From positions 1-37,877 of IMG/VR virus record IMGVR_UViG_3300036864_000076: a stretch of 37,877 nucleotides of DNA. One strand, 5' to 3'. The DNA comes from a virus. The notes beneath the pieces were generated by a model. It was not told the DNA's origin. It was given only the letters and a program-made list of their open reading frames with translations, and ran no database searches. Shown here piece by piece: positions 3,330 through 36,349 of the stretch (positions within the stretch are counted from its first letter, which is position 1; the number at the start of each line of letters is the position of its first letter). Position numbers and translations under genes: made by a program.

Positions 3330-3494
3330 ATGGACTACCTGGACCGCGCCGTCCAGGCCATGCGTGACAACCTGTGCCTCGCGCTGGGGATGCCCGGTGC
3401 CGACCTTGAGCGGATCGACTCATTCATCCTCGCCGACGGCAGCACATACATCCGCCTACCGGACGGCACGTTCTCGGATCGTTGGGAGGCCTGA
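3330..3494 (+). CDS. Hypothetical protein, 54 aa, upstream of portal
   Basis: Fifty-four residues starting at ATG 3330, one base after the preceding stop. Sequence begins MDYLDRAVQAMRDNL and ends in a beta-hairpin-like segment with YIRLPDGTFSDRW. No family recognised. It ends 2 nt before the portal start, and its last codons carry the GGGAGG ribosome-binding site for the portal. Confidence 0.6.
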   Translation: MDYLDRAVQAMRDNLCLALGMPGADLERIDSFILADGSTYIRLPDGTFSDRWEA

Positions 3495-3496
3495 CT

Positions 3497-4909
3497 ATGG
3501 GCTGGCTGGACGGGTCGAACGCAGCCAAGCAAACCACCGTCCTCGACGGCACCCAGAACTTCATCAACCTCCCCGCCCTCGGCGGCCGCCCCAACCTATC
3601 CGGCGTGATCGAACCCGACGGCTCGTACGAGGTGTTCTCGTCGGCTGGATACGGCCGCAACGAGCTGGTGTATGCGTGCATCGCGCTGCGCGCGGAATCG
3701 CTGCCGCAGTCGCAGCTGAAGGTGTATCCGACCGGCCCGTCGAACCGGGCCCTCGATGACCATCCGATCCGCCGGCTGATCGAACGGCCGAACGAGCTCA
3801 TCTCCGAATTCGACCTGTTCGAGCTGCTGGTCACGTACCGGGATCTGGCTGGGATCTGTTACACGATGGTGGTGCCCGGTCGTGATGGGACACCGTCGGA
3901 GCTATGGCCGCTGCGACCCGACCTGGTCGGTGTGCTGCCGTCGAGCCGTGACCCCCGCGATTACACGTGGGTGTACAGGCCGAACCCTGAACGGCCCGAC
4001 ATTCAGGTGCTGATCCCGCGGCAGCAGATGATCGTGGCGAAGTACCCGAACCCGAACCCGTTCAACCCGGCCGACCGGTACTTCGGGAAGCCGCCGCTCC
4101 GGTCCGCGGCGCGGGCGATCAGCCTCGACAACGCGGCGACCGACTTCGTGGACCGGTTGCTCCGCAACGACGCGACCCCGACGACTGTGGTGACGACCGA
4201 GCAGGCCGTGACCGATGCACTGGTCGAGCGGCTCCGTGCGAAGTGGTTCCAGCGGCACGCCGGCCAGAACCGTGGCGGATTGGCGTTCCTGCAGAAGGGC
4301 ATGAAGGTTGAGGCGCTGGGCCTGAATCTGCGAGATCTGGAGTTCCCGGACCTCCGCACGATCAGCGAGTCGCGGGTGTGCATGACGATGGGCCGGACCC
4401 CGCCGATCCTGGTGGGCGCGAAGGTGGGCTTGGACCGGTCGACGTTCGCGAACTACCACGAGGCGGTCGAGTCGTGGTGGAACGGGCCGCTGTGGTCGTT
4501 GCAGCGCAAGTTCCGTGACGCGTTCAGCGGGGGCCTGTTGCCGACCCAGGTGGGCCGTAAGCGGGTCATGCTTGCCTGGGACAACAGTGAGGTGCCGTCG
4601 CTGCGTGAGGGTGAGTCGGCGCGGTGGGAGCGGGCAACGAACGCGCTCGCGCGGGGCGGGATCACACGGAACGACTTCCGCGAGGTTGTGGGCCTGCCGC
4701 CGGTCCCGAATGGTGACGTGTTCCTGACCCCGTCCGGTGTGCTCGCGGAGGACTCCGGTGTGGAGCCTGCGGGGGGTGCGCTCGAGTCGGTGGCCGCGGC
4801 GTACGCGTTGACGGCTGCCGAGTTCGGGATCGAACTGTCTACCGATGAGCTCGCTGTCTTGCGGGCCCAGCATTCTCAAGCACTGGAACTGGAAGGACGA
4901 CGAGCATGA
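3497..4909 (+). CDS. Portal protein, HK97 family
   Basis: Protein of 470 residues that forms the dodecameric ring at one capsid vertex, through which DNA enters and leaves. The N-terminal half shows the HK97-type portal pattern: NELVYACIALRAESLPQ, then HPIRRLIERPNE and a stem region with YRDLAGICY. The C-terminal part has the SEWARWERATNAL-like clip/crown helix and a GLPPVPNGDVFL segment typical of these portals. I place the start at ATG 3497 because GGGAGG lies 7-12 nt upstream; an in-frame earlier TTG at 3482 lacks support. Its stop overlaps the protease start (ATGA). Confidence 0.93.
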   Translation: MGWLDGSNAAKQTTVLDGTQNFINLPALGGRPNLSGVIEPDGSYEVFSSAGYGRNELVYACIALRAESLPQSQLKVYPTGPSNRALDDHPIRRLIERPNELISEFDLFELLVTYRDLAGICYTMVVPGRDGTPSELWPLRPDLVGVLPSSRDPRDYTWVYRPNPERPDIQVLIPRQQMIVAKYPNPNPFNPADRYFGKPPLRSAARAISLDNAATDFVDRLLRNDATPTTVVTTEQAVTDALVERLRAKWFQRHAGQNRGGLAFLQKGMKVEALGLNLRDLEFPDLRTISESRVCMTMGRTPPILVGAKVGLDRSTFANYHEAVESWWNGPLWSLQRKFRDAFSGGLLPTQVGRKRVMLAWDNSEVPSLREGESARWERATNALARGGITRNDFREVVGLPPVPNGDVFLTPSGVLAEDSGVEPAGGALESVAAAYALTAAEFGIELSTDELAVLRAQHSQALELEGRRA

Positions 4910-6117
4910 CTGATGGCCCGGAGCTGCTGCGGATCGGTGTCGATGGTGTTGTCCCGGTCCAGTGGGAAGCCGAGAAGAACGACGCGGACAACGGCATGCT
5001 GGTCGGGTGGGCGTCGGTGTACAACGTGATCGACCAGCAGGACGACGTCGTCATCCCCGGCGCGTTCCGCAAGACGATGAGCGAGTGGAACGCCGCGAAG
5101 GGTCAGCGGGTCATCGGCTTGACGCTGGACCACCAGAACACCGCTGAGGGTCTGATCGGGGCGCTCGCCAAGTTCGACGACACCGCTTACGGGTTGAAGA
5201 CCGGGTTCCGGTTCTCGTCGGTCGCGAAGGCGCAGGACGCCCGGGCGAAGGCCCGCGAGGGGATCCTCAACGGGCTGTCGATCTACGGCCCGATCTTCAA
5301 AAAGGCGTTCGACAACGTGGCCGGGAAGTCGGTGCGGATCCTGCAGGAGGTTGGGTTGGCGTTCGTCGGGCTGACCCCGATGCCGGCCAACACCGGTTCG
5401 CTGGTGCTCACCGCGAAGGCCGTCTCGGACAAGCCGTGGAGCCAGTTCACGCAGGCCGACTACACCGACGAGCAGTGGGCCCGGGCGTGCCTGGTGGACA
5501 CCGGCGAGGGTGAGGGCAAGCAGCGTTACAAGCTGCCCGTCAAGGAGCCGAGCGGAACGATCAGCCGCGCCGGCTGCCACGCCGCCGCGGCCCGCATCAA
5601 CCAGCTCGGCGTGTCGAGCGAACTCAGGTCGAAGGCCGCGCGGGCGCTGGTCCGGATCTACCGGTCGGACCTGAAGGAGGACCCGCCAGAAAGCCTGCTG
5701 CGGATGGCGGGGATGGCGTCGTCGGCGCTGCTGTCGCTGCCGGACGACTGGGTGACCGACATGCGGTCAGCGCTAGGCATCACGGTCCCGGAGGCGCGTG
5801 ACGCCGCGGTGGGTGTGCTGGTGAAGTCCCAGTACGGGCAGGTCCTCGCACCCCCGCCCGAGGCCGTGGACGAGCCGGACCCCACGAGCGGTGAGGGTGG
5901 AGTGGATGACGACCGCACTGCTGCCGAGTACGCTCTTGCTGTAATCGGTGAATCCGGGCCGGGCATGGACCCACCCGGCGGCGAGCCGAGTGACTCACTC
6001 GACGGACTGCTCGCGTCGTTGGACGCGGCAGACATCACCTCCGACCTCAATGCCCTAGAGGCTGAGCTCAGGAGTGTGTCGAGTGACCACGCAGACGCGT
6101 CAGAAGGATCTCGTTGA
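4906..6117 (+). CDS. Prohead protease, HK97/S78-like, with long C-terminal extension
   Basis: Protein of 403 residues. Residues 1-165 match the HK97-type prohead protease: 'GWASVYNVIDQQDDVVIPGAF', the histidine H76 in LDHQN and the nucleophile S125 in LNGLSIYG. It matures the head by cutting scaffold and capsid N termini. After it comes a conserved extension (about residues 180-265: ADYTDEQWARACLVD, then SGTISRAGCHAAAARINQ) resembling domains found in other actinophage capsid proteases, and an acidic Pro/Gly-rich tail. No separate scaffold gene is visible, so the extension or the capsid N terminus may serve that role (inference). It overlaps the capsid start by 35 nt. Confidence 0.88.
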   Translation: MTDGPELLRIGVDGVVPVQWEAEKNDADNGMLVGWASVYNVIDQQDDVVIPGAFRKTMSEWNAAKGQRVIGLTLDHQNTAEGLIGALAKFDDTAYGLKTGFRFSSVAKAQDARAKAREGILNGLSIYGPIFKKAFDNVAGKSVRILQEVGLAFVGLTPMPANTGSLVLTAKAVSDKPWSQFTQADYTDEQWARACLVDTGEGEGKQRYKLPVKEPSGTISRAGCHAAAARINQLGVSSELRSKAARALVRIYRSDLKEDPPESLLRMAGMASSALLSLPDDWVTDMRSALGITVPEARDAAVGVLVKSQYGQVLAPPPEAVDEPDPTSGEGGVDDDRTAAEYALAVIGESGPGMDPPGGEPSDSLDGLLASLDAADITSDLNALEAELRSVSSDHADASEGSR

Positions 6118-7357
6118 CAAGTCGCTCCAGTGCCTGACGCTGGCGCGCACGATCGAAGCCCGCTACCCCGACCCGACGAAGATCCCCGCCGAGCACGCGG
6201 TCAAGATCAAGGACCTCGTGCGGGAGGCGCGCCGGCTCAAGGAGCTCGCCGACGTCGCCAAGGAGCAGGACGAGATGGAGGCCTGGGCCGCGAACCCGGA
6301 CCAGGTGCCCGCCGCTCTGGCCGCCGAGGCCGCCACCGCCAGCAAGGTCGGCGACCTGAACCAGTTCAACGAGGTCGTGAAGCGTCGCCAGGTCGAGATG
6401 TTCGCGAAGGCAATGCGGCTCGGCGTGAAGGGTCAGCAGTGGGTTGACCAGCTGGACGTCGCCGAGAAGGCCGCCCTGATCGAGGACGCCACCGGTGAAG
6501 TCATCGTCCCGCATGACATCGCGGGCCCGATTTTCAAGTCGCTGCCGCACCTGGCCGTGTTCCGCGGCGCTGGCCCGACGATCCGGCCGACCACCTCGAA
6601 CAAGGTCGACCTGCGTTCGATGACCGGTGCGACAGCCGGCTGGGGCAAGCTCGAACTGAACACCGGCACGGTCGACGCCAACGTGGTCCCGAACACGCCG
6701 GTTGACACGATCGAGGTCCACGACCTGACCGCGATGTCGCGGATCGGTGTCGACGAGCTGGCCGACACCGACACGAACCTGATCACGCTGATCCAAGGCA
6801 TCGTCGGGCAGAAGGTCGCCGAGATGGAGGACGACGCGTTCGCGGCCGGCAACGGCGTCTCCAAGCCGTGGGGTCTGGCCGCCCGGGCGACGTCGGCCGC
6901 GAACCAGATCACCCAGGCTGTCACCGCGGCAGCGAACGCGACGCTGACCGGCGACGACCTGAAGAAGCTGCCGTACCGGGTCACGTCGCGTTACCGGTCG
7001 AACGGCGCATACTTCTTCAGCAATGACGCCGCGGAGGCGGCCGCGCTGCTGAAGGACTCCACGTCGAACTACCTGTGGCAGCCGTCCAACCAAGCCGGCC
7101 AGCCCGACGTGCTGTTCGGAAAGCGGGCGCTGACGCTGGAGGGGCTGCCGTCGATGACCGCGTCGACGGGCATCGTCGAACCGTCGGTGATCTTCGGTGA
7201 CCCCGAGCTCGGGTACCTGGTCGCGGACCGGCAGCGGATCACGGTGCAGCGCCTCGACGAGCGGTACGCCGAACTCGGTCTGGTCGCGTTCCTGTTCAAG
7301 ATGCGTGTCGGCGGGGACGTGATGCGCCCGCTCGCGTTCGCGAAGTACCTGCTCTGA
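6083..7357 (+). CDS. Major capsid protein, HK97 fold
   Basis: Protein of 424 residues. The first 110 or so are charged and helical with coiled-coil character (VREARRLKELADVAKEQDEM), as in HK97 delta domains that act as internal scaffold and are removed by the protease. The rest carries the HK97 capsid pattern: 'PHDIAGPIFKSLPHLAVF', an 'MEDDAFAAGNGVSKPWGL' segment around the E-loop/P-domain and a C-terminal RMRVGGDVMRP-like end. I chose GTG 6083 because AGGAG at 6070-6074 is 8 nt upstream; GTG 6074 overlaps that site. A hairpin follows the gene. Confidence 0.93.
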   Translation: MTTQTRQKDLVDKSLQCLTLARTIEARYPDPTKIPAEHAVKIKDLVREARRLKELADVAKEQDEMEAWAANPDQVPAALAAEAATASKVGDLNQFNEVVKRRQVEMFAKAMRLGVKGQQWVDQLDVAEKAALIEDATGEVIVPHDIAGPIFKSLPHLAVFRGAGPTIRPTTSNKVDLRSMTGATAGWGKLELNTGTVDANVVPNTPVDTIEVHDLTAMSRIGVDELADTDTNLITLIQGIVGQKVAEMEDDAFAAGNGVSKPWGLAARATSAANQITQAVTAAANATLTGDDLKKLPYRVTSRYRSNGAYFFSNDAAEAAALLKDSTSNYLWQPSNQAGQPDVLFGKRALTLEGLPSMTASTGIVEPSVIFGDPELGYLVADRQRITVQRLDERYAELGLVAFLFKMRVGGDVMRPLAFAKYLL

Positions 7358-7476: not shown

Positions 7477-7845
7477 GTGAACATCACCATCAACAACCAC
7501 GTCAGCGGTCGCACGTCGGACGGCCGGGCGTTCGCTGCCGGCGCGGGCACGAGGACGGTCGTCGAGGACGGCGACGAGCCGATGGTCGCGCTGATGCGGG
7601 AGTGGGCCGCGACCGGTGACGTGCAGATCCTCGACGACCAAGCCGAGAAGTCCGAGCCGGACGAGGAGGAGCCGGCCGCCGAAGCCGCCACTGCCGACAC
7701 CGGCGCGGAGGAGCCGGACCCGGAGGTCGTGCTCGCGGATCTGCGAGCCGAGGCTGAGGCTGCGGGTGTGAAGGTCGACGGCCGGTGGGGTGTCGACCGG
7801 CTCCGCGAGGAGATCGCCGCAGCGGGTGCCGAGGCGGCCGAGTGA
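7477..7845 (+). CDS. Head-region protein with acidic linker and SAP/HeH-like C terminus
   Basis: Protein of 122 residues from GTG 7477 with GAAGGA 10 nt upstream. The N terminus (ITINNHVSGRTSDGRAF) is beta-rich, the middle is an acidic Ala/Glu/Asp linker, and the last 35 residues (VVLADLRAEAEAAGVKVDGR, then WGVDRLREEIAA) look like the short helix-extended-helix or SAP-like modules found at the ends of phage head and connector proteins. It directly follows the capsid gene and couples by GTGA to the glycosyltransferase. A decoration or head-completion role is possible but inferred. Confidence 0.65.
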   Translation: MNITINNHVSGRTSDGRAFAAGAGTRTVVEDGDEPMVALMREWAATGDVQILDDQAEKSEPDEEEPAAEAATADTGAEEPDPEVVLADLRAEAEAAGVKVDGRWGVDRLREEIAAAGAEAAE

Positions 7846-9755
7846 CCCGCATCCTGTGGCACAGCGTCCACCCTGCGGTTGGTTCGGGGTACGGCGGACA
7901 GACCGCGACGTTCGCCCCGCGGATCAAGGCCGCAGGCCACGACATCGCCATCTCCGCCTACTACGGATGCCAAGGCTTCAAGACCCAGTACAAGGGGATC
8001 CTGTGCTACCCGGCCTACGGCAAGTCGTACGGCACGGACGTGATCATCCCCCACGCCGTCGACCACTTCGGCGGCGGCCCGGGCGTCTCATTCAGAGAGG
8101 TCGCCGACAAGGGCCTGATCATCACCCTCGGCGACGTGTGGACGTTCAACCAGCCGCTGCTGTCGGAGATGAACGTCGCAGCGTGGGTGCCGGTCGACCA
8201 CGAGGACGTCCCGCCGATGGTGGCCGGCTGGTTCGGGATGACGGGCGCCGTGCCGATCGCGATGTCCAGGTTCGGCGAACGGGCGCTGCAGCGCGCTGGC
8301 CTGGACCCGCTGTACGTGCCGCACGGCATCGACACCAGCGTGTTCTGCCCGGGCGACAAGGCCGAGGCCCGCGACCGGGCCGGGCTCCCCGAGGATGCGT
8401 TCGTGGTGGCGATGGTCGCGGCGAACGTCGGCCGCGACGGTGCACGCAAGGCGTTCTATGAGCAGATCCTCGCGTTCGGTGAGCTCCGCAAGAAGCACTC
8501 GGACGCGGTCCTCGCGCTCCACACCGACGTGACATCGGCGCAAGGTGTCGACATCCGGCACCTGCTGTCGGACTTCCCACCGGACAGCTACGTGTTCACC
8601 GACCAGTACGCGTACAAGGTGGGTATGTCGGCCGACAGGGTGGCCGACATCTACCGGGCCGCGGATGTCCTCACGAACACCAGTTGGGGTGAGGGGTTCG
8701 GTATCCCGATCGTGGAGGCGCAGGCCACCGGCTGCCCGGTCATCGTGACGGACACGACCGCGATGCCCGAGCTGGTGGGTGCCGGGTGGACGGTGCCGGG
8801 TGAGCGGATGTGGCACGACTCGCAGTCGGCGTGGGCGCGGCGGCCGCTGATCTCGGGGATCGTCGACGCGTACGAGCAGGCCTACGCGGAGGTGCGTGAC
8901 GAGCACATGCGGGCCCGTGCGTGGGCGTTCGCGCAGGACTACGACGCCGACCGGGTGATGCAGGAGTTTTGGAAGCCTGCGCTGGAGCGGCTTGAGACGG
9001 CGATGGAGAAGCGCCGGGCCGAGGCTGCGGCTCCGGTCCAGCCACGGCGGCCTTCGGTCCGGGAGGCGGATGGGCTGCTGTGGCTGGACCGGCCCGGCAC
9101 GGACGACTGGGTGGCATACAGCAGCCACGAGGCCGAGCTGTTGCCGATCGCAACAGACCTGCTGCCGGAGGATGGCGTGTTCCTCGACGTCGGCGCCCAC
9201 GTCGGTCACTGGGCGCTGCGGCTCGCAGGCCGGGCGTCGGCGGTGATCGCGGTCGAACCGAATCCGGCAACGGCCCGGACATTATGGAAGCACTGCCTAA
9301 TCAACGACATCGAAAATGTCTGGATCGAGCAGGTCGCGGCATGGGACTCCGATGAGGATCTGCGGCTGGAGGACCCGAACAACAAGATCGAGGGCGGCTC
9401 AACCCGCACGGTCCCGGCCGATGACGGCGATCTGCGGACGGTGTCCGGTGTCCGGCTGGACGAGCAGATCATCACCGATCGCCTCGATCTGGTGAAGATG
9501 GACGTGGAGGGCGCCGACCTCCACGCGCTGCGAGGCATGGCCGGCCTGCTCGAGCACTTCAAGCCAGCGCTGCTGATCGAGGACCACAGCATCTACGGCT
9601 ACTACGAGCGCGCTGAGCTCGAGGCCCTGCTCACCGAGCTCGGCTACACCAGCGAGGTCGTCCACACGTACTTCACGCAGTGGTCACCGGCCGGGCAGAC
9701 CGACGAAGTGCGCCGCGCCGACTACCTCGTCTGCAAGCCAGATGGGGCCGACTGA
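7842..9755 (+). CDS. Fusion of GT-B glycosyltransferase and FkbM-type methyltransferase
   Basis: Protein of 637 residues with two enzyme domains. Residues 1 to about 390 form a GT-B fold of the GT4 type: a Gly-rich N-terminal loop (SGYGGQT), a VPHGIDTSVF segment and the E-x7-E donor-binding motif with E284 and E292 (GEGFGIPIVEAQATGCPVI). After a charged linker, residues 430-630 are a class I SAM methyltransferase of the FkbM kind: motif I FLDVGAHVGHW (D449), VEPNPATA, and KMDVEGAD (D554). The likely job is to add a sugar to a virion or host target and O-methylate it (inference). It starts at GTG 7842, coupled to the head-region gene, and couples by TGATG to the connector gene, so it is made with structural proteins. 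Codon use matches its neighbours. Confidence 0.88.
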   Translation: MTRILWHSVHPAVGSGYGGQTATFAPRIKAAGHDIAISAYYGCQGFKTQYKGILCYPAYGKSYGTDVIIPHAVDHFGGGPGVSFREVADKGLIITLGDVWTFNQPLLSEMNVAAWVPVDHEDVPPMVAGWFGMTGAVPIAMSRFGERALQRAGLDPLYVPHGIDTSVFCPGDKAEARDRAGLPEDAFVVAMVAANVGRDGARKAFYEQILAFGELRKKHSDAVLALHTDVTSAQGVDIRHLLSDFPPDSYVFTDQYAYKVGMSADRVADIYRAADVLTNTSWGEGFGIPIVEAQATGCPVIVTDTTAMPELVGAGWTVPGERMWHDSQSAWARRPLISGIVDAYEQAYAEVRDEHMRARAWAFAQDYDADRVMQEFWKPALERLETAMEKRRAEAAAPVQPRRPSVREADGLLWLDRPGTDDWVAYSSHEAELLPIATDLLPEDGVFLDVGAHVGHWALRLAGRASAVIAVEPNPATARTLWKHCLINDIENVWIEQVAAWDSDEDLRLEDPNNKIEGGSTRTVPADDGDLRTVSGVRLDEQIITDRLDLVKMDVEGADLHALRGMAGLLEHFKPALLIEDHSIYGYYERAELEALLTELGYTSEVVHTYFTQWSPAGQTDEVRRADYLVCKPDGAD

Positions 9756-10291
9756 TGACGAACACGCTGGTTGACCCGCCCGACCTCGCCGACTACCCGG
9801 GTGCACCGTTCCCGGCCGCCGCGGTCGACGCCGCGGTCGCCAACCTGCGCGAAACCGTCGGCTGGCACATCGCACCACAGGTCACCGAGACCCTAACCGT
9901 GCACGGCAGCAACACCGAGCTGCTCGTACTGCCCACCCTGAAGATCGTCACCGTCACCGCGGTCCGCGACGTGTCCGGCACCACCCCTGTCACCCTGACC
10001 GGGTACCGGGTCAACTCCAAGGCCGGCCTACTGCAACGCGAAGAGGGTTGGCCGGACGGGTTCGAGGTCGTCGAGGTCGACCTGACCCACGGGCTCACCG
10101 AATGCCCGAAGGACCTGCTGCCAGCGGTGGCCTGGTTCTGTCAGCGGCAAACCGTGGACGCATCGGTGGCGTCGGAGTCGCTCGGGTCCTGGTCGGAGTC
10201 GTACTCCAACCCGGCGTCGTCGTTTCGTACACCGGTGGTGGAGTACCCGATTGAGACCATCGCCCGGTACACGGTGTGGACGGAGACCTGA
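9755..10291 (+). CDS. Head-to-tail connector (adaptor) protein
   Basis: Protein of 178 residues from ATG 9755 (TGATG with the previous stop). It has the layout of phage adaptor proteins: an N-terminal helix-rich part with DAAVANLRETVGWHIAPQV, a beta segment TELLVLPTLKIVTVTAVRD, and a C-terminal helix with LLPAVAWFCQRQ followed by SWSESYSNP. In HK97-like phages this protein sits under the portal. Assignment rests on pattern and on its place between capsid and stopper genes. Confidence 0.75.
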   Translation: MTNTLVDPPDLADYPGAPFPAAAVDAAVANLRETVGWHIAPQVTETLTVHGSNTELLVLPTLKIVTVTAVRDVSGTTPVTLTGYRVNSKAGLLQREEGWPDGFEVVEVDLTHGLTECPKDLLPAVAWFCQRQTVDASVASESLGSWSESYSNPASSFRTPVVEYPIETIARYTVWTET

Positions 10292-12976: not shown

Positions 12977-15048
12977 AGGTTGGTGAACTGGTCGCCGCCC
13001 TCGACGTCGACGACGACGGATTCGTCCGGGGGATGCGCAAGGCAGAGACGGAGTTCAAGGCGTCCGGTCGGCGGATCGAGACCCAGGCGGGGGCCACCGC
13101 GGACGGTGTCGGTCGCGAGTTCAGCAAGGGCGGCGACAAGGCTGGCCGCTCCTTCGGCTCGACCTTGAAGCATTGGTTCACTGGTTCGGGCTCGAAGGAC
13201 ATGCAGACCTCTGGGTCGTTTGGTGCGTCGGTGTTCGGCTCGGGCTTTCTCGGTGCATTGAAGACGCCTGTCCTGGGCCCGGCGATCGCGGCGATTCTGT
13301 TGGCTGCGGTCGCAACGGCGCTGCCAGCGGTCGGTGCCGTCGCCGCCGGTGGGCTTGTCACCGGGTTCGGCGCCGGGCTCGCCGGTCTCGGCATCGTGTT
13401 CGCGGCCAAGAGCGAAGCCGTGAAGAAGGTATGGTCGGACACCCTGACGGCCATGGGTGCCGACATGCAGCTTCTCGCCCGTCCCTTCGAGAGCACCTTG
13501 ATCGTGATCGCCGGGATCTTCCGGCGCACCTTCGACGCGTTCAACCCGTACCTGGCGCGAGCGTTCGCGAAGATGGCCGGCCCCATTCAGAACTTCGTGG
13601 ACTCCGCGGCCCGGGCGCTGGAGGGTCTGATCCCGGCGATCGACCCGATCACCGACGCGTTCAACAGGGTGCTCGCGTCGCTGGGGCCGGCGCTGCAGTC
13701 CGCGGTGAGTGACCTGTCCGACGGGCTGATCGCGCTCGCCAAGAGTGTGGAGGAGAACCCGCAGGCCCTGGCGGACGTGGTCGAGGGTGTCGGTGGCCTG
13801 AGCCGTGAGGCGCTCGGGCTCATCACCACGCTGAACGACGTCAATGGCCAGTTCAGTGACCTGACCGGCGGCTTGTCGCTGGTGGAGATCACCATCGGAG
13901 CCGTCTCTGGTCCCATCATCGCGTTGAAGGCGGTGTTCGACGGGTTGAGTTTCACCCTCGGTCTGGTCAATGCGGCGTTCAGCCACTCGAGGACGGACGT
14001 CGACGCCAACGCGCACAGCATGCTCACCGCAGCCGATGCGGTCTCGGCCGCCGCGAAGGCTCACGGGGACCTGGGCCTGCAGGCGCAGCATGCCGGTCCG
14101 CCGATCAAGAGCGCCGCCGAGAAGATCCAGGCGGCAAAGGACGCGGCCGCCGCGGCAAAAGTGAACTTTGAGGCACTGATTACCTCCATGTTCCGGCTGC
14201 AGAACCTCGCCCTGGGCTTGAGTGGGGCGCAGATCAACCTTCAGTCCGCGTTCGATGATGCGTCCCAGGCGATCAAGGACAACGGCACGACCCTGAACAT
14301 CAATACCGAGAAGGGCCGGGCGAACAAGACGGCGCTTAACAACGTCGCGAAGGCCGCCAACGACCAGACCGAAGCGATCATCCGGGCCGGCAAAGGGTAC
14401 GTCGCGGCGGCGACCTCGGCTGAGTCGTCGCGGAGGAACTTCGTCAAGATCGCGATCCAGATGGGCATGAGTAAGACGGCGGCGCAGAAGCTGGCGGCGC
14501 AACTGATCGCGATCCCGAACGTGGTCCGGACGGCGAAGCTGCAGGCAGACAAGACCCAGCTGGAGTACAGGATCCGGCAGGCTAAGCAGGCGTTGGACTC
14601 CCCGAAGCTGACCGCCACCAAGAAGGCAAAGCTGACCGCCTACATCGGCGAGCTGCAGCGTCAGGTCAATGCGGCGCAGGCCAAGATCAACTCGCTGCGC
14701 GGCAAGACGGTGGTGATCCGGTACACGGCGACCGGGGTGAACCTGACGGCACCCTCGAGTGTCGGCCGCCGGCAGCACGGTGGCCCGGTCGCGGCCGCCG
14801 GTGCGTACCTGGTGGGTGAGCGTGGCCCGGAGATGTTCGTGCCGAAGACGGCCGGCGTCGTGGTCCCGAACACCCGGTTGAACACGGCGCCGCGCGCCTG
14901 GGGCGGCGGTAGCGGTAGCGGTGACATTCGGGTTGTCCTCGAGCTCCGGTCCAGTGGTTCCCGCTGGGATGACCTGCTGGTGCAGCAGATCGCCGGGGCC
15001 GTTAGGGTACGAGGCGGCAACGCGAAGATCCTCGGGATCAAATCATGA
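12967..15048 (+). CDS. Tape measure protein
   Basis: Protein of 693 residues from GTG 12967 with AAGGAGG a few bases upstream. The N terminus 'LVAALDVDDDGFVRGMRKAE' is typical of actinophage tape measures. Residues about 97-155 are strongly hydrophobic (membrane-insertion region), followed by long Ala/Gln/Lys helices and a C-terminal GGPVAAAGAYLVGERGPEMF motif common near tape measure ends. At roughly 0.15 nm per residue the tail would be near 100 nm (estimate from family behaviour). No lytic transglycosylase or peptidase domain is obvious. Confidence 0.93.
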   Translation: MALKVGELVAALDVDDDGFVRGMRKAETEFKASGRRIETQAGATADGVGREFSKGGDKAGRSFGSTLKHWFTGSGSKDMQTSGSFGASVFGSGFLGALKTPVLGPAIAAILLAAVATALPAVGAVAAGGLVTGFGAGLAGLGIVFAAKSEAVKKVWSDTLTAMGADMQLLARPFESTLIVIAGIFRRTFDAFNPYLARAFAKMAGPIQNFVDSAARALEGLIPAIDPITDAFNRVLASLGPALQSAVSDLSDGLIALAKSVEENPQALADVVEGVGGLSREALGLITTLNDVNGQFSDLTGGLSLVEITIGAVSGPIIALKAVFDGLSFTLGLVNAAFSHSRTDVDANAHSMLTAADAVSAAAKAHGDLGLQAQHAGPPIKSAAEKIQAAKDAAAAAKVNFEALITSMFRLQNLALGLSGAQINLQSAFDDASQAIKDNGTTLNINTEKGRANKTALNNVAKAANDQTEAIIRAGKGYVAAATSAESSRRNFVKIAIQMGMSKTAAQKLAAQLIAIPNVVRTAKLQADKTQLEYRIRQAKQALDSPKLTATKKAKLTAYIGELQRQVNAAQAKINSLRGKTVVIRYTATGVNLTAPSSVGRRQHGGPVAAAGAYLVGERGPEMFVPKTAGVVVPNTRLNTAPRAWGGGSGSGDIRVVLELRSSGSRWDDLLVQQIAGAVRVRGGNAKILGIKS

Positions 15049-17909
15049 CGTTCCCCTCTGATCCGCGCGGCGTCACCTTCGAGATGTACCTCAACGGCAC
15101 CTGGGTCGACATCACCGCCGACGTCGACCCGGAGACCGGTCGGGGCCCGGTCCTGGACCGCGACGACATCGTCATCACCTACGGCAGCCCCGACGAGGCC
15201 GGCACCGCGGCGCCGGCAACCTGCAACCTCACCCTGAACGACAGGCTGAAGAAGTACTCGCCCCGCAAAGCCACCAGCCCCTACTACCCCTGGCTGGGCC
15301 AGAACACCCCGGTCCGGGTCGGGATCAAAGGCCTGACCGAGACGGTCGACACGTTCACCCGCACCGTCGCGACCGGGTGGGGAACCTCCGACGAGGGCAT
15401 CGTCTGGTCGGTCGCGGGTGTGGGCGGCACGATCAGCCCGTCCGACCAGTCGGTCAGCGGCGGCAAGGGCCTGCACTCGGTGCCCGCTGCGAGCGCCTAC
15501 CGCAGCAGTCATCTCGCACCGGATGTCGCCGCGGTCGGCCCCGATGACAGCTACCTGAACCCGAACGTTGCGGTCACGGTGTCGGTCCCGTTCACCGATG
15601 TCACCGGGGGCCCGCTCGAACCTGCGAACATCATCCTGCGTGGCCAGTCCAGCTCGGACTACTACCTGGCCCGGGTGACGATCGAGACGAACGAGACGGT
15701 CACGCTGGCGATCCGGCGGGAGACCGCCGGCACGGTAATCGCCGGGCCGGTCACCATCAGCGGCCTGACCCATTCCGCTGGGCAGTCGCTGCGGGTCCGG
15801 TTCCAGGCACTCGGCACGACATTGCGGGCACGGGTGTGGAACGCCGCCGCGGCCGAGCCGGACACGTGGCACCTGTCGACCACGTCCAGCCTGATCAACG
15901 CCTCAGGGTTCGTCGGCGTCCGGTCTGGTATCGGGGCGGGGAACACGAACACGAAGCCGGTCGTGTTCAGCTATGACGAGTTCGAGGGGCCGGCGTTCCG
16001 GTTCACCGGTGAGATCGCGCAGCTGCCGCCCCGGTTCAACGACACGGGCAGCGACAGATGGGTTCCGCTGACCGCGGCGGGGATCCTGCGCCGCATCGGG
16101 CAGGGCTCCCAGCCGGTCGCCAGTGCCCTGAAGGCGTACTACCTGTCCGGCCAGCCGGTCACGTACTGGGCGCTCGACGAAGGCACTGACGCGACCGTCG
16201 GACATCCGACCGCCGGCACCTACATGTCGTCGCTGTTCAAGCGGGTGTACCTGAAAGGCGTCTACACCTTCGGGGACGGGCTCCTCGCCCCGCACCTCGA
16301 CATGGTGATGAGAATCGACGACCTGCAGCCCGCCGCCGGGTACGACTTCCTCGCCGGTGGCTGCGTCGGGTCGCAGGCCACTCCGAACGCATTCGCGTGG
16401 GAGTTCACCTACCGGCATATCCCGGCGACGAACGGCGGCGCCAACAACGTGCCGACCTGGTTCTTCCAGGCCGGTGTCGACGGCACTGCGGTCAACACCC
16501 GCGATGAGTGGCGGCTCATCATCCAGAACGGCAGTGGCGACTTCCAGCTTCAGCTTTGGTTGGACACCAACTTCGCCAACACCGGCGTGACACTCGGCAC
16601 GTCGGCGACGCTGGACGCGGTCACCGACGGGCTGCTCCACCACATCCGGATACAGGCCAACCAGGTCGGCGCCAACGTCGACTTCGCCGTCTACGTCGAC
16701 GGCGTCTCGGTCATCTCCGGCACCCGCAACACGCACACGCTGCGCCGCAGCCAAGACGTCCACGTCCACTACGACCGGTCCACCGGCCAGGACCTGCTGG
16801 CACTCGGCCACATCATCGTGTGGGAGACCACCGCGAACATCCCACCGGTCGCGACCACGGCCGGGCTCGCGCATGGGTTCGCCGGGGAGACCGCAGGCCG
16901 CAGGTTCGAACGGCTCTGCGGTGAGACGGGCACCCCGTTCGCCAGTATCGGCGACCTTGACGACACGCTGATGATGGGCTTGCAATACGAGGACTACTTC
17001 GCGAACCAGCTGACCGAGATCGAAACCACGGACCAGGGCCGCATCTACGAGCCGCGGAGTCGGCGCAGGGTCGGCTACCGGACCCGGACCAGCCTGTACA
17101 ACCAGGCGCCTGCCGCGGTGCTGTCGGTGACAGCGGGCCAGTTGGACGATCCGTTCGAACCGGTCGACGACGACCAGCAGCTCCGCAACGACGTGTTCGC
17201 TCAGCGGCGCAACGGCGGCTCGTACCAGGCGACACTGTTGACGGGCAGGCTGTCGGTGCTCGAGCCGGAGGCGGGTGGTGTCGGCCGGTACAAGGACGAG
17301 GTTCAGGTAAACGTCCAGACAGACGACATGCTGCCGGCGTCGGCCGGGTGGCTGTTGCACCTCGGCACGGTCGACGAGCCCAGGTATCCGCAGATCGCGG
17401 TCGACCTGGCCGGCAACGTGGCCGCGGACCAGGACCTGTCGAACGACGTGCTGAGCATCAAGGTCGGTGACCGGGTCGACATCACCAACCTCGCCGTGCT
17501 CGGCATCGACGATGATGCGTCGGTCATCGTGCTCGGCTACACCGAGACGCTGAACCACCACACGCACCGGATCGTCTTCAACTGCGCGCCAGCATCCCCA
17601 TACGAGGTGAACGAACTTGATGACGGGATCTCACGGATCGACCCCGACGACGGCTCCACCCTGGCGTCCGGGGTGACCAGCACCGCCACATCCCTGTCCG
17701 TGGCCAGCGCCGGGTTCCTGTGGACCACGGCCGGTGGCGACATGCCGATCCCGATCATGGTCGGCGGCGAGGAGATGACTGTCACCGCGATCAGCGGTGC
17801 GAGCTCACCGCAGACGTTCACCGTCACCCGCAGCGTCAACGGCGTGGTGAAGACCCATTCGACCGGTGCCGTGGTCCGCCTCAAGCGGCCTGGCGTCGTG
17901 GCGCTATGA
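15045..17909 (+). CDS. Minor tail protein with LamG/concanavalin-like region
   Basis: Protein of 954 residues coupled by ATGA to the tape measure. The first 120 residues (GVTFEMYLNGTWVDITADVD, GPVLDRDDIVITYG) are a distal-tail-like start common in actinophages. Residues about 110-310 form a first beta-sandwich region (jelly-roll like, with DTFTRTVATGWG opening). Residues about 370-590 form a second lectin-like sandwich with DGLLHHIRIQANQVGANVDF. The C-terminal part resembles tail-tip hub strands and ends in a Ser/Thr-rich beta domain. It likely forms the tail tip and carries sugar-binding modules (inference). Confidence 0.83.
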   Translation: MTFPSDPRGVTFEMYLNGTWVDITADVDPETGRGPVLDRDDIVITYGSPDEAGTAAPATCNLTLNDRLKKYSPRKATSPYYPWLGQNTPVRVGIKGLTETVDTFTRTVATGWGTSDEGIVWSVAGVGGTISPSDQSVSGGKGLHSVPAASAYRSSHLAPDVAAVGPDDSYLNPNVAVTVSVPFTDVTGGPLEPANIILRGQSSSDYYLARVTIETNETVTLAIRRETAGTVIAGPVTISGLTHSAGQSLRVRFQALGTTLRARVWNAAAAEPDTWHLSTTSSLINASGFVGVRSGIGAGNTNTKPVVFSYDEFEGPAFRFTGEIAQLPPRFNDTGSDRWVPLTAAGILRRIGQGSQPVASALKAYYLSGQPVTYWALDEGTDATVGHPTAGTYMSSLFKRVYLKGVYTFGDGLLAPHLDMVMRIDDLQPAAGYDFLAGGCVGSQATPNAFAWEFTYRHIPATNGGANNVPTWFFQAGVDGTAVNTRDEWRLIIQNGSGDFQLQLWLDTNFANTGVTLGTSATLDAVTDGLLHHIRIQANQVGANVDFAVYVDGVSVISGTRNTHTLRRSQDVHVHYDRSTGQDLLALGHIIVWETTANIPPVATTAGLAHGFAGETAGRRFERLCGETGTPFASIGDLDDTLMMGLQYEDYFANQLTEIETTDQGRIYEPRSRRRVGYRTRTSLYNQAPAAVLSVTAGQLDDPFEPVDDDQQLRNDVFAQRRNGGSYQATLLTGRLSVLEPEAGGVGRYKDEVQVNVQTDDMLPASAGWLLHLGTVDEPRYPQIAVDLAGNVAADQDLSNDVLSIKVGDRVDITNLAVLGIDDDASVIVLGYTETLNHHTHRIVFNCAPASPYEVNELDDGISRIDPDDGSTLASGVTSTATSLSVASAGFLWTTAGGDMPIPIMVGGEEMTVTAISGASSPQTFTVTRSVNGVVKTHSTGAVVRLKRPGVVAL

Positions 17910-25149: not shown

Positions 25150-25364
25150 GGCGTCTCTTCCTCGGTGCCGTTGACCGGATGGGAGTCGACCTCGATGGTC
25201 AACTCGACCGATGTGCCGTCAGGGCTGACGACTGCGCCACGTACGACACCCTCGCGTGCAGAACCATCCGGCATGTTGACCCTGATCGTCTTACCAATCT
25301 GCGAATCGAACGCCGTCGAGTCGAACCGCTCGCCGGGACTTGCTGGATATGTGAAGGTCATCAT
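25146..25364 (-). CDS. Hypothetical protein, 72 aa, downstream of integrase
   Basis: Seventy-two residues, ATG 25364 overlapping the integrase stop (ATGA), with a second ATG 3 nt later. Mostly beta-like with the acidic end VNGTEEETP. No domain is recognised. The tight coupling to integrase and to the membrane protein after it supports a real gene in one lysogeny operon. Confidence 0.6.
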   Translation of the reverse strand: MMTFTYPASPGERFDSTAFDSQIGKTIRVNMPDGSAREGVVRGAVVSPDGTSVELTIEVDSHPVNGTEEETP

Positions 25365-26173
25365 GCTGACAGTCTCCTGACCGCGGACGTCTTTGCCCGC
25401 GACTCGACCTGCGTGTAGATCTGCGTGGACGCCACCGAACGGTGACGCATCAACTCCTGAACAACCCTCAGATCACCGGACTGCCGCAGCGTCTCGGTGC
25501 CGAACCAGTGCCGCAGCTGGTGGGCGGTGACGTGATACCCGGCGCGGGTGAACGCGGCCGCTATCGTCCTCGACACCGCCTTCGCCGCCACATGCCCATG
25601 ATCACGGCCGGGGAACCACCATCCGACCACTGGGTAGCCGCGGGTCAGTTGCGCGACCAGTGGATGCACCGGCATCCACTCACCGCTGCCACCCTTCCCG
25701 ACCACGTAGAACCGGTCCCCGTCGAAGTCTTGTCCGGTGACGCGGGCGATCTCGCAGCAGCGGAGCCCGGCGTACAGGCCGAGGACGATGTAGGCGCGGA
25801 CCCGGCGCGGCGCCCCGGTGAGGACCGCGTGGATCGCGTCGCCCGGCGCCGGGCGTGGTACCGCCCGCGGTGTCCTCGGCGAGCGCAGCAGCGTCGTCGG
25901 GTCATCGGCGCGTAGGCCTTGTTCGAGCAGCCACCGGTGCCATTGGCGGGCGGTGATCAGGTAGGTGCGGCGGGTCCAGTCGTTGTGGCAGTCGGCGAGC
26001 CACGCGACGATCTGGGCGGTGGTGAAGGTGACCGGATCGGGGTTGCCGCTGTGGTTCATCAGGGCGCGGATGCCGTAGAGCCGGGTGGTGACGGTGTTCT
26101 CACTGCCGCCGTTGGCTTGGATCCACTGTGTCCAGGCGATCAGGTACTGCGTGTGCATGGTGTTCCCCCTCAT
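25361..26173 (-). CDS. int: Tyrosine recombinase (integrase)
   Basis: Protein of 270 residues from ATG 26173, which overlaps the repressor stop and has GGGGGGAG 8 nt upstream. An alternative start 5 codons in (26158) also has a good site (GAGGGGGAA). Residues 10-85 form the SAM-like core-binding domain. The catalytic set is R138 (LRCCE), K160, H218 and R221 (HQLRH), H244 and the nucleophile Y253 (QIYTQV). It inserts the phage at a host attB and, with an excision factor, removes it. It lacks the N-terminal arm-type domain of lambda integrase, so it may use a short attP. No attP could be identified. Confidence 0.94.
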   Translation of the reverse strand: MRGNTMHTQYLIAWTQWIQANGGSENTVTTRLYGIRALMNHSGNPDPVTFTTAQIVAWLADCHNDWTRRTYLITARQWHRWLLEQGLRADDPTTLLRSPRTPRAVPRPAPGDAIHAVLTGAPRRVRAYIVLGLYAGLRCCEIARVTGQDFDGDRFYVVGKGGSGEWMPVHPLVAQLTRGYPVVGWWFPGRDHGHVAAKAVSRTIAAAFTRAGYHVTAHQLRHWFGTETLRQSGDLRVVQELMRHRSVASTQIYTQVESRAKTSAVRRLSA

Positions 26174-33034: not shown

Positions 33035-33234
33035 CCGACGATATTGCTGCTCTAGAGGCCCGTTGGCACGAGGCAGCCCGAAAGGAAGGGCCGAAGTCCT
33101 GGGCAGCGGAGAATGCGGCCTGGGATGCCATGGAGACTGCCAAACGAGCAGCAGGTATGTGCATCGAACCCGGCTGTCGTTCAGCTGGGTTCGATGCCGA
33201 CGGCCGCTGCAGCGAGCATCCCGTATTCCCATGA
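33031..33234 (+). CDS. Hypothetical protein with C-terminal Cys/His motif, 67 aa
   Basis: Sixty-seven residues, helical at the start (ALEARWHEAARKEGPKSWAA) with a Cys/His group at the end (MCIEPGCRSAGFDADGRCSE, then HP), a possible zinc site. ATGA coupled on both sides, including to the RusA-like gene. An 11-bp inverted repeat lies in its C-terminal codons. Confidence 0.6.
   Translation: MTDDIAALEARWHEAARKEGPKSWAAENAAWDAMETAKRAAGMCIEPGCRSAGFDADGRCSEHPVFP
33161..33197. repeat. 11-bp perfect inverted repeat within a small gene
   Basis: GCATCGAACCC (33161-33171) and GGGTTCGATGC (33187-33197) pair exactly, with a 15-nt loop. It contains GGTTCGAT, the consensus of a tRNA T-loop, but no tRNA fold surrounds it. 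It could be an RNA hairpin upstream of the RusA gene. Confidence 0.55.
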
Positions 33235-33740
33235 CCACGCTGGAGCAGACGACGTGGGGCGTGTGGGTGCCCGGCATCCCCCGCCCCAAAGGCTCCATGA
33301 AATGTGTCGGGCGCCGCGGCCCCATCAAACACGCCCTCGTCGAGCAAGTCGACAACGAGGCATGGCGCCGCCAAGTCACCGCCGCCGGCCGCGCCCTCCC
33401 CGTCCACGGTCTCACCTGCCCCGTCGCGCTCTCCGTCACCTTCACACTGCCCCGCCCCACCTCGCACTACGGCACAGGCCGCAACGCCGGCCGGGTCCTC
33501 GACACGGCCCCCGCATGGCCCACAGGCCGCGGCACAGGCGACTGGGACAAGTACGCACGCATCATCGGCGACGCCTGGCAGATCAAAGGCGGAGCCGGCG
33601 TCATCGTCGACGACAGCCAAATCGTCAACGGCGTGGTGTGGAAGTGCTACCCGGACACGCCCGGCTGCCCAGACCGCAGGCCCACCCCTGGCGCCGTCAT
33701 CCGCCTCTACCTCATCGACGAAAGGGAGACCCTGCTGTGA
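33231..33740 (+). CDS. rusA: RusA-family Holliday junction resolvase
   Basis: Protein of 169 residues. It starts WVPGIPRPKGSMKCVGRRG, then has a long strand-turn region 'SVTFTLPRPTSHYGTGRNAG' and the acidic core 'GDWDKYARIIGDAWQ' followed by VIVDDSQIVNG, which carries the conserved aspartates of RusA. RusA dimers resolve four-way junctions made during recombination, which fits the Erf-type annealing protein upstream. The start is fixed by a 4-nt overlap. Confidence 0.9.
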   Translation: MTTLEQTTWGVWVPGIPRPKGSMKCVGRRGPIKHALVEQVDNEAWRRQVTAAGRALPVHGLTCPVALSVTFTLPRPTSHYGTGRNAGRVLDTAPAWPTGRGTGDWDKYARIIGDAWQIKGGAGVIVDDSQIVNGVVWKCYPDTPGCPDRRPTPGAVIRLYLIDERETLL

Positions 33741-34405
33741 GGCCACGCCTGCTCGACTTGTTTTGCGGCGCTGGCGGCTGCTCAGTCGGGTACGACCGCG
33801 CAGGGTTCGAAGTGTGGGGAGTCGATGTCTACTACCACAAGGACTACCCGTACCGGCTCACCGTCGCCGACGCTCTGGACGTCCTTCAAGACAAGGCGTT
33901 CCTCGACTTGTTCGAGGTCATCCACGCATCCCCACCCTGCCAGGAGCACACTCGCGCAAAGCATCTCCGAGCAGCGCAGGGCAAAGTTGTTCGCGAGGAT
34001 GCGCAAGACCTCGTCGTCCCCGTCCGGGCCGCCCTGATAGAAGGCTGGCGCGGCCCCTACGTCATAGAGAACGTTGAGGGCGCCCCCATCCGCTCCGACG
34101 CGTTGCTCTGCGGGTCAGCGTTCGGGTTGAAGGTGCGCCGGCACCGCTGCTTCGAGACGAACGTGCCACTGGGGCTCCAGCTCGGGTGCCGGCATGCTGA
34201 GCAGGGCCGCCCTGTTGGTGTCTACGGCTCCGCAGCCGATGACATCCCCGCTGGTGGCCGCACCGCCCGGACAGTCAAGGAAGCCGGCGAGGCCATGGGC
34301 ACCGAGTGGATCACCCGATGGGCCGACCAGGTAGAAGCCGTCCCGCCGGCATACACGCAGTTCATCGGCGAGCAGCTGCTGACCCAAGTCCGGCAGGTGG
34401 CCTGA
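33737..34405 (+). CDS. DNA cytosine-5 methyltransferase
   Basis: Protein of 222 residues, small for the family, starting at GTG 33737 (GTGA overlap). Motif I is LLDLFCGAGGCSVGYDRAGF, motif IV ASPPCQEHT with catalytic C68, motif VI VIENVEGAP, and motif VIII RRHRCFE; the end has AYTQFIGEQL (motif X). The target-recognition region between VIII and IX is short. It methylates cytosine C5 in a site that cannot be predicted. No restriction enzyme gene lies next to it, so it may protect phage DNA. Confidence 0.92.
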   Translation: MRPRLLDLFCGAGGCSVGYDRAGFEVWGVDVYYHKDYPYRLTVADALDVLQDKAFLDLFEVIHASPPCQEHTRAKHLRAAQGKVVREDAQDLVVPVRAALIEGWRGPYVIENVEGAPIRSDALLCGSAFGLKVRRHRCFETNVPLGLQLGCRHAEQGRPVGVYGSAADDIPAGGRTARTVKEAGEAMGTEWITRWADQVEAVPPAYTQFIGEQLLTQVRQVA

Positions 34406-34776: not shown

Positions 34777-35174
34777 TGCGCACCTATGACGAAATGTGGG
34801 CCAGCGCTCGTGAGGAGAGCGCATTCAGCAACGGCACCGAGTGGGAATGCTGGTCAGCGAACTGGTGCGACCGCTGCATCCACGATAAGCCCGCGCGGCA
34901 AGGCGACGAGGGCAATGGCTGCCCACTGATCCTGATCGGCTTCTGCGGGCGCACACCGCTGGAATGGATGGAGCACGAGAGATTCAGCCTCGGCGACCGG
35001 TACCACTGCATCGAGTTCCGCGACGAAGACGATGGCCCAACCGAGCCTCCCGGTCCGTCGCCGCAGTGCCCAGGACAGGGCGAGCTGTTCGACCCGGCGC
35101 CGTACGAGGGTGTGCGCATGTTCGCAGACATCGTCCCCGTCCGGGCCGCCCTGACACCCGTGGATGAGCAATGA
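34776..35174 (+). CDS. Hypothetical Cys-rich protein, 132 aa
   Basis: Protein of 132 residues. The middle has EWECWSANWCDRCIHDKPAR and NGCPLILIGFCGRTP, with four or more cysteines and aromatic residues, a pattern I have seen in other actinophage early proteins but cannot name. The last third is acidic and proline-rich. Overlaps the amino-methyltransferase start. Confidence 0.6.
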   Translation: MRTYDEMWASAREESAFSNGTEWECWSANWCDRCIHDKPARQGDEGNGCPLILIGFCGRTPLEWMEHERFSLGDRYHCIEFRDEDDGPTEPPGPSPQCPGQGELFDPAPYEGVRMFADIVPVRAALTPVDEQ

Positions 35175-36349
35175 TGCGCTCCCACCTCGGCACGGCAGCT
35201 GTCATCCGCGGCGACGCCCGGGCCCTGCCGCTCGCGGATAACAGCGTCGACTTGATCGTGTCCAGCCCGCCTTACTTCGCGCTCCGCTCCTATCAGGATG
35301 GCGGCGAGCACTACGCCGGCCAAATCGGCAGCGAGCCCACCCCGGCCGAGTTCGTCGACTCGCTGATCGAGGTGACACGCGAGTGTGTGCGGGTGTTGAA
35401 GCCGTCGGGGTCGCTGTGGATCAACCTCGGCGATACGTACTCGGCGTACAACCGGAACCGTGGCGCGGGCGGCACATTATCGGCCCGGACTGATGGCGGC
35501 CGCGGATCCGTGACCGAACGCGGTCTACCTGCTGGTGCCCCGCGCGCCAAGTCCCTGATGGGCATCCCGTGGCGGTACGCGCTGCGCTGCATCGACGACC
35601 TCGACCTCATCCTCCGCGCCGAGATCATCTGGTCCAAACCGAACGGGCTCCCCGAATCCGTCACCGACCGGGTCCGCCGCTCCCACGAACAGTGGTTCCA
35701 CTTCACGCTGGAGCCGCGGTACTACAGCGCCGTCGACGAGATCCGCGAACCGCACGCAAGGAACGGGATGCAGACCACAGAGCCGAATCCGCTCGGGAAG
35801 CTGCCCGGCAGCGTCTGGAGCATCCCCACCGAACCCCTCACCGTCCCCGCCCACCTCGGCATTGACCACTTCGCCGCGTTCCCACTCGAATGGCCCCGCC
35901 GCATCATCCAAGGCTGGTCACCACCCGGCATCTGCACCGCCTGCGGCGAAGGACGACGGCCCATCAGCGACGCGCAGACTTACCCGACACAAGGCCCAAA
36001 TCGCGCCGTGAAACACAATGTTGACCGCAAAGATCATGGCGGTAGTGACGGGCGGCTCGCGACAGTGCGGTCGATCACCGGCTACGCCTGCGCCTGCCCC
36101 GAACCCACCGCCCCCACCCGCCCCAGCGTCGTTCTTGACCCGTTCGGCGGGACCGGCACTACCGCCCTCGCCGCCCGCGCCCTCGGCCGGCACGGCATCA
36201 GCATCGACATGTCCGCCGACTACAGCAGCCTCGCCTGCTGGCGCACCACCGACGAACGCGAACTCGCCAAAGCCATGCGCGTCCCCAAACCGGCGGTCCA
36301 GGTCGACGGGCAAGCATCCATGTTCGACTTCCTTGAGGAGGCGCAGTGA
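35171..36349 (+). CDS. DNA N4-cytosine or N6-adenine methyltransferase (beta class)
   Basis: Protein of 392 residues (ATG 35171, or ATG 35174). Motif IV SPPY is at residues 32-35 (DLIVSSPPYFALRSY). The SAM-binding motif comes later (VLDPFGGTGTTALAARALGR, D323), the order of beta-class enzymes. The SPPY form fits N4-cytosine methyltransferases, though adenine cannot be excluded. A long middle section (about 60-300) should recognise DNA; the CTACGEG pair in it could bind zinc. No paired endonuclease is seen, so a solitary, anti-restriction role is likely (inference). Confidence 0.9.
   Translation: MMRSHLGTAAVIRGDARALPLADNSVDLIVSSPPYFALRSYQDGGEHYAGQIGSEPTPAEFVDSLIEVTRECVRVLKPSGSLWINLGDTYSAYNRNRGAGGTLSARTDGGRGSVTERGLPAGAPRAKSLMGIPWRYALRCIDDLDLILRAEIIWSKPNGLPESVTDRVRRSHEQWFHFTLEPRYYSAVDEIREPHARNGMQTTEPNPLGKLPGSVWSIPTEPLTVPAHLGIDHFAAFPLEWPRRIIQGWSPPGICTACGEGRRPISDAQTYPTQGPNRAVKHNVDRKDHGGSDGRLATVRSITGYACACPEPTAPTRPSVVLDPFGGTGTTALAARALGRHGISIDMSADYSSLACWRTTDERELAKAMRVPKPAVQVDGQASMFDFLEEAQ

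Follow-up and report, generated by a model that had tools for sequence, protein, structure and literature searches.

Organization of the head operon

The window, a 37,877-base virus contig analyzed over its whole length, has a GC content of 67% and carries an integrase gene (25361-26173), so that the phage is probably temperate. The nearest isolate matches of its largest tail protein are in Streptomyces phages which, together with the GC content, leads to an actinobacterial assignment; this soil phage is probably a temperate siphovirus and an actinophage. A prophage-host scan of genome contigs gave just two weak domain-level matches. Elsewhere in the window, a 954-aa tail protein (15045-17906) matches phrog_5313 and, in three stretches, the phrog_24476 'phosphodiesterase', and is possibly a tail component that degrades wall polymers. 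In the early region, a gap of about 0.8 kb divides two separate DNA methyltransferase genes (33113-34405 and 35171-36349).

The head genes run in the order portal, prohead protease, major capsid protein (MCP), a 122-aa protein, a glycosyltransferase-methyltransferase fusion, head-tail adaptor and connectors, followed by the tail genes (Table 1). The fusion gene overlaps its neighbors at both ends: its GTG start overlaps the upstream stop codon (GTGA at 7842), and its stop codon overlaps the next ATG (TGATGA at 9753). These overlaps uphold the claim of an earlier note that the gene is coupled to head genes on both sides, with the nuance that the gene directly upstream encodes the phrog_10035 protein and the MCP gene is one further back. 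The location of the fusion between the MCP and neck genes also places a glycosyltransferase (GT) within a virion structural module, as is characteristic of actinophage glycosylation systems. No promoter-like site was found between positions 5900 and 11000; two terminator-like sites occur in the same range, both on the other strand and in a number that matches shuffled expectation. Because of the gene overlaps and the lack of a promoter-like site there, expression of the fusion should be late. The acidic phrog_10035 protein could conceivably be a decoration or acceptor protein.

Table 1. Features of the head region and of the fusion gene, in window positions
Feature	Positions	Strand	Basis
Portal protein	3482..4909	+	Phage_portal, E 4.8e-53
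Prohead protease	4906..6117	+	Peptidase_S78, E 3.4e-11
Major capsid protein (MCP), HK97 type	6074..7357	+	Phage_capsid, E 1.5e-42; proposed acceptor
122-aa acidic protein between MCP and GT	7477..7845	+	phrog_10035, E 1e-08; overlaps GT start
GT4 glycosyltransferase-FkbM methyltransferase fusion	7842..9755	+	Pfam and PHROG matches, shared start, purifying selection
GT4 domain, GT-B fold	7842..9026	+	Residues 1-395; AlphaFold2, Foldseek, motif counts
FkbM (Methyltransf_21) domain	9117..9656	+	About residues 426-605; Pfam, motif counts, BFVD matches
Head-tail adaptor (neck)	9755..10291	+	phrog_442, E 2e-23; start overlaps fusion stop

The reading frame of the fusion encodes 637 residues from a GTG start. 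A longer in-frame reading frame from 7785 was rejected because the homologs share a start at the equivalent of 7842, and the recurrence of the same fusion in dozens of separate contigs rules out an artefact of assembly or of a frameshift. Relative to the nearest relative (L007), the dN/dS of the window's gene is 0.23 overall, with 0.22 in the GT half and 0.28 in the FkbM half; the value for the MCP is similar (0.27). Both halves are under purifying selection, and both seem to be maintained as functional.

Domains and predicted structure of the fusion

The N-terminal half has the characteristics of the GT4 family of retaining glycosyltransferases, namely profile scores above the curated cut-offs, a predicted GT-B fold, and an E-x7-E motif together with basic phosphate-binding residues. 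In particular, it matches Glyco_trans_1_4 at residues 203-319 (E 9.5e-13; 49 bits against a cut-off of 27) and Glycos_transf_1 (42.5 bits against 26.4), and the PHROG 2170 glycosyltransferase profile spans residues 4-377 (E 1.6e-31). Its motifs are GYG at 16-18, N195 followed by R202-K203, and E284-x7-E292. Across all 71 GT homologs, G16, G18, N195, R202, K203 and E284 are invariant, while position 292 is a glutamate in 64 and a glutamine in seven.

The C-terminal half matches Methyltransf_21/FkbM at residues 449-602 (E 2.2e-15; 57.7 bits against a curated cut-off of 22.7) and the PHROG 8156 methyltransferase profile at residues 430-605 (E 3.8e-21). It contains the motifs LDVGAHVG (448-455), VEPNP (471-475), KMDVEGAD (552-559) and IEDH (579-582). 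The motifs expected of the FkbM family (DxGAHxG, VExNP, KxDVEGAD and E580/H582) are kept in the 45 fused homologs, where E472, D554, E556 and H582 are invariant and position 449 is an aspartate in 42 and a glutamate in three. The reading frame and the Pfam and PHROG matches confirm the earlier description of the gene as a 637-residue GT4-FkbM fusion, and the residues that it singled out (E284/E292, D449 and D554) are all present at those positions.

The AlphaFold2 model, calculated from an alignment of the 71 sequences, has a mean pLDDT of 93.5 and a pTM of 0.71; the mutual placement of the two domains is therefore less certain than each domain itself. Foldseek searches of the PDB with this model place GT-B glycosyltransferases on top, including a chlorovirus enzyme (3oy2), MshA and PimB', with BshA also matched. 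Against viral models (BFVD), the matches are phage RfaG-type glycosyltransferases and phage FkbM proteins; one 936-aa phage protein named FkbM covers most of the query, with a poor superposition (rmsd 26.6). The earlier note had made its reading depend on a GT-B plus Rossmann pair, and such a pair is predicted by AlphaFold2, Foldseek, the profiles and the motif conservation. Overall, the assignment as a predicted GT4-FkbM enzyme is very likely.

Linkage of the glycosyltransferase to the capsid gene

The 71 GT homologs come from a survey of IMG/VR viral contigs, and 70 of their loci had an upstream reading frame that could be assessed by plus-strand gene calling and profile tallies. The nearest upstream reading frame of at least 250 aa matched Phage_capsid in at least 61 of these 70 loci; Phage_capsid_4 matched in three, some of which may already be counted among the 61. 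Clustered at 40% identity, the 70 upstream proteins form 15 groups; a median of 440 bases separates upstream protein and GT. Single upstream frames of about 860-890 aa occur at L012, L047, L048, L065, L066 and L069; as eight of the 70 upstream reading frames match prohead protease, several look like protease-MCP fusions.

The reverse survey, starting from the MCP, gave the same association. Among loci whose MCP is at least 50% identical to that of the window, a GT lies within 2.3 kb downstream in 30 of 30 that were informative, a count that includes near-duplicate contigs, as do the other linkage counts, so that the independent number is lower; three more such loci were left out as their contigs end too early. 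The GT is accompanied by an FkbM half in 24 of the 30 and by a CmcI-like half instead in one (L046), and the contig ends inside the GT in the other five. For distant MCPs (26-33% identical), a GT homolog was found downstream in two of the 11 loci tested. In the surveyed contigs, all 30 loci on the MCP side carry the GT, which therefore counts among the core genes of this MCP clade rather than being stray cargo. The same linkage disfavors a stray moron gene.

This linkage bears on which molecule is modified. The fusion gene also abuts the neck gene, and glycosylation of mycobacteriophage tail tubes is cited in PMC12363180, so that the acceptor might be a different virion protein, such as the tail tube, the neck or the 7477-7845 protein, instead of the MCP, or the glycan might first be built on a carrier. 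Such an acceptor is quite unlikely, as conservation of the fusion follows the MCP: tblastn matches to the neck and tail-tube proteins occur only in the closest relatives, and the MCP and GT remain together further out.

A different possibility is that the enzyme modifies a glycopolymer of the host surface (wall teichoic acid or some other glycan of the wall) and so alters the receptor, which would keep competing phages out or free the progeny and would make the fusion a gene for lysogenic conversion or late exclusion. The integrase of this phage is consistent with such a role, as is the presence of PimB' and other bacterial cell-envelope and small-molecule glycosyltransferases among the best solved-structure neighbors; in some bacteria, wall polymers are substrates of soluble GT4 enzymes. 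Conversion genes typically have a sporadic distribution, whereas this gene is tied consistently to a capsid lineage, overlaps the head operon on both sides and has no promoter-like site of its own, which makes modification of the host wall unlikely. The earlier note had suggested decoration of the virion first, with host-wall modification as its alternative. The former is strengthened by the two-direction linkage to the MCP, the overlaps on both sides and the precedents for capsid glycans, with the acceptor still putative, and the latter is weakened.

Modular variants downstream of the capsid gene

Comparison of these contigs shows a modular region after the MCP gene, in which four types of fusion occur: GT4-FkbM, GT4-FkbM-CmcI-like, GT4-CmcI-like and GT4-GT2. 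FkbM is carried by 45 of the 71 homologs and Methyltransf_24 by seven. A local profile places the CmcI-like domain within the fusion in seven loci, of which six also have FkbM and one lacks it; in 14 others the domain has its own reading frame, which begins no more than 0.5 kb from the GT stop. The three-domain GT4-FkbM-CmcI-like chains are 824-872 aa long (L024, 8001-10496; L034, L012, L042, L043 and L045), and the GT4-CmcI-like fusion without FkbM (L046:4176-6008) belongs to the same MCP clade. Further, one GT4 is fused to a GT2-type domain (L014:1020-2879), and one locus has a separate FkbM gene with a four-base overlap with the GT stop (L094). Among the 63 reading frames that follow stand-alone GT4s are 13 GT2 proteins, six NDP-sugar epimerases and three Methyltransf_24 proteins. 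The third domain or neighbor gene of the relatives is matched by the profiles for CmcI/rhamnosyl O-methyltransferase (PF04989) and Methyltransf_24; these domains are found only in the relatives, and none is present in the window.

On a quick, unrooted GT tree, three changes suffice to explain the distribution of the FkbM label. One homolog with a divergent FkbM (L068) is nested among unfused GTs, suggesting at least two fusion events.

This modularity raises the alternative that the two halves are functionally separate, where the GT builds a glycan, FkbM transfers methyl groups to something unrelated, and the fusion is only a means of co-expression. Accordingly, FkbM and CmcI-like domains are gained, lost or split in the relatives, as in the GT4-CmcI chain (L046), the separate FkbM gene (L094) and the distinct FkbM (L068). 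The swapped domains, however, are of sugar-modifying types, and the fused methyltransferase of chlorovirus A064R acts on the sugar that its own chain adds (PMC9614988). Separate functions are therefore very improbable.

Proposed function

The proposal of a virion-modifying enzyme draws directly on the domain identity, motifs, predicted fold, purifying selection, operon position and MCP-clade linkage of the fusion. A soluble single enzyme probably adds an O-methylated sugar to the capsid or to another virion protein. The fusion enzyme would be soluble and produced late together with the head proteins. Using a nucleotide sugar of the host as donor, the GT4 half would attach a sugar to a virion protein, most likely the MCP encoded two genes upstream, or would alternatively extend a glycan already on that protein. 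The window genes that were scanned include none for sugar-nucleotide synthesis, so that the enzyme would rely on host donors. The FkbM half would then O-methylate that sugar with S-adenosylmethionine as the methyl source; that both halves act on one sugar is suggested by their fusion alone. In the relatives, a CmcI-like methyltransferase, either as a C-terminal fusion or as the next-door gene, would place a second methyl group on a different hydroxyl. Catalysis, the order of the steps, the sugar and the acceptor are putative at each of these points, and the benefit to the phage may be masking of the particle, stability or altered adsorption. Adjacency of the genes does not by itself establish the MCP as the acceptor, and the substrate could instead be in the tail, the neck or the wall.

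Comparison with known systems

Glycosylated proteins are reported for the mycobacteriophages Che8, Corndog and Myrna, and phage GTs decorate the capsid and tail tube, according to PMC12363180; the Freeman 2023 study of mycobacteriophage glycosylation is cited there and in PMC13313380. In Corndog, the O-methyltransferase gp35 adjoins the GT genes gp36-38 in the head module, and capsid modification was proposed (PMC4351075). Corndog resembles the window in encoding GTs and a methyltransferase within the head module. By its published description, however, it has separate GT and methyltransferase genes in the portal-protease interval, whereas the window has one chain after the MCP. A tblastn search of public isolate phages with the fusion protein (E <= 1e-5) gave no mycobacteriophage match, the Corndog record itself not being compared.

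The A064R protein of PBCV-1 is a 638-aa chain with GT and methyltransferase domains that completes the MCP glycan, where it adds a rhamnose and O-methylates it; A061L adds another methyl (PMC9614988). Like the window fusion, A064R combines a GT and a methyltransferase in one chain, and it may be regarded as a functional analog; as precedents for the window, both it and the mycobacteriophage systems serve by analogy. In contrast to the single GT-B/GT4 domain and FkbM domain of the window, A064R carries a pair of GT domains, of which one, at the front, has a GT-A fold and the second is a rhamnosyltransferase, and its virus has a eukaryotic host. Homologous GT4 genes also lie downstream of the MCP in Pontimonas phage phiPsal1 (35% identity), alongside a GT2 and a methyltransferase, and in Microcystis phage Mae-JY09 (42% identity), alongside an epimerase. 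In both of these phages the GT4 is a stand-alone gene without a fused methyltransferase, unlike the fused GT4 of the window.

The earlier note had called a single enzyme of this kind less usual. This holds among public isolate phages, where no full-length fusion was found, but not among uncultured viral contigs, where the fusion is common. Literature searches on phage GT-FkbM capsid enzymes returned nothing relevant. The kind of system is known; what seems not to have been described in the searchable literature is that it is built as a single chain, comes in modular variants and is consistently tied to one capsid lineage.

Taken further, with the odds about even, a clade of uncultured, probably actinobacterial phages would have an obligatory capsid glycan that a single-chain enzyme builds and O-methylates and that is co-inherited with the MCP. 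The modular slot after the capsid gene would fuse, split and swap GT and methyltransferase domains, diversifying the coat sugar in parallel to chlorovirus A064R. Phage virion glycosylation is known from few isolates and, if this proposal is true, it would be among the core traits of a capsid lineage that is both widespread and uncultured. The fusion would then offer a compact bifunctional enzyme for producing methylated glycoproteins in bacteria, and its relatives would form a natural domain-swap series that could reveal the rules by which coat sugars diversify.
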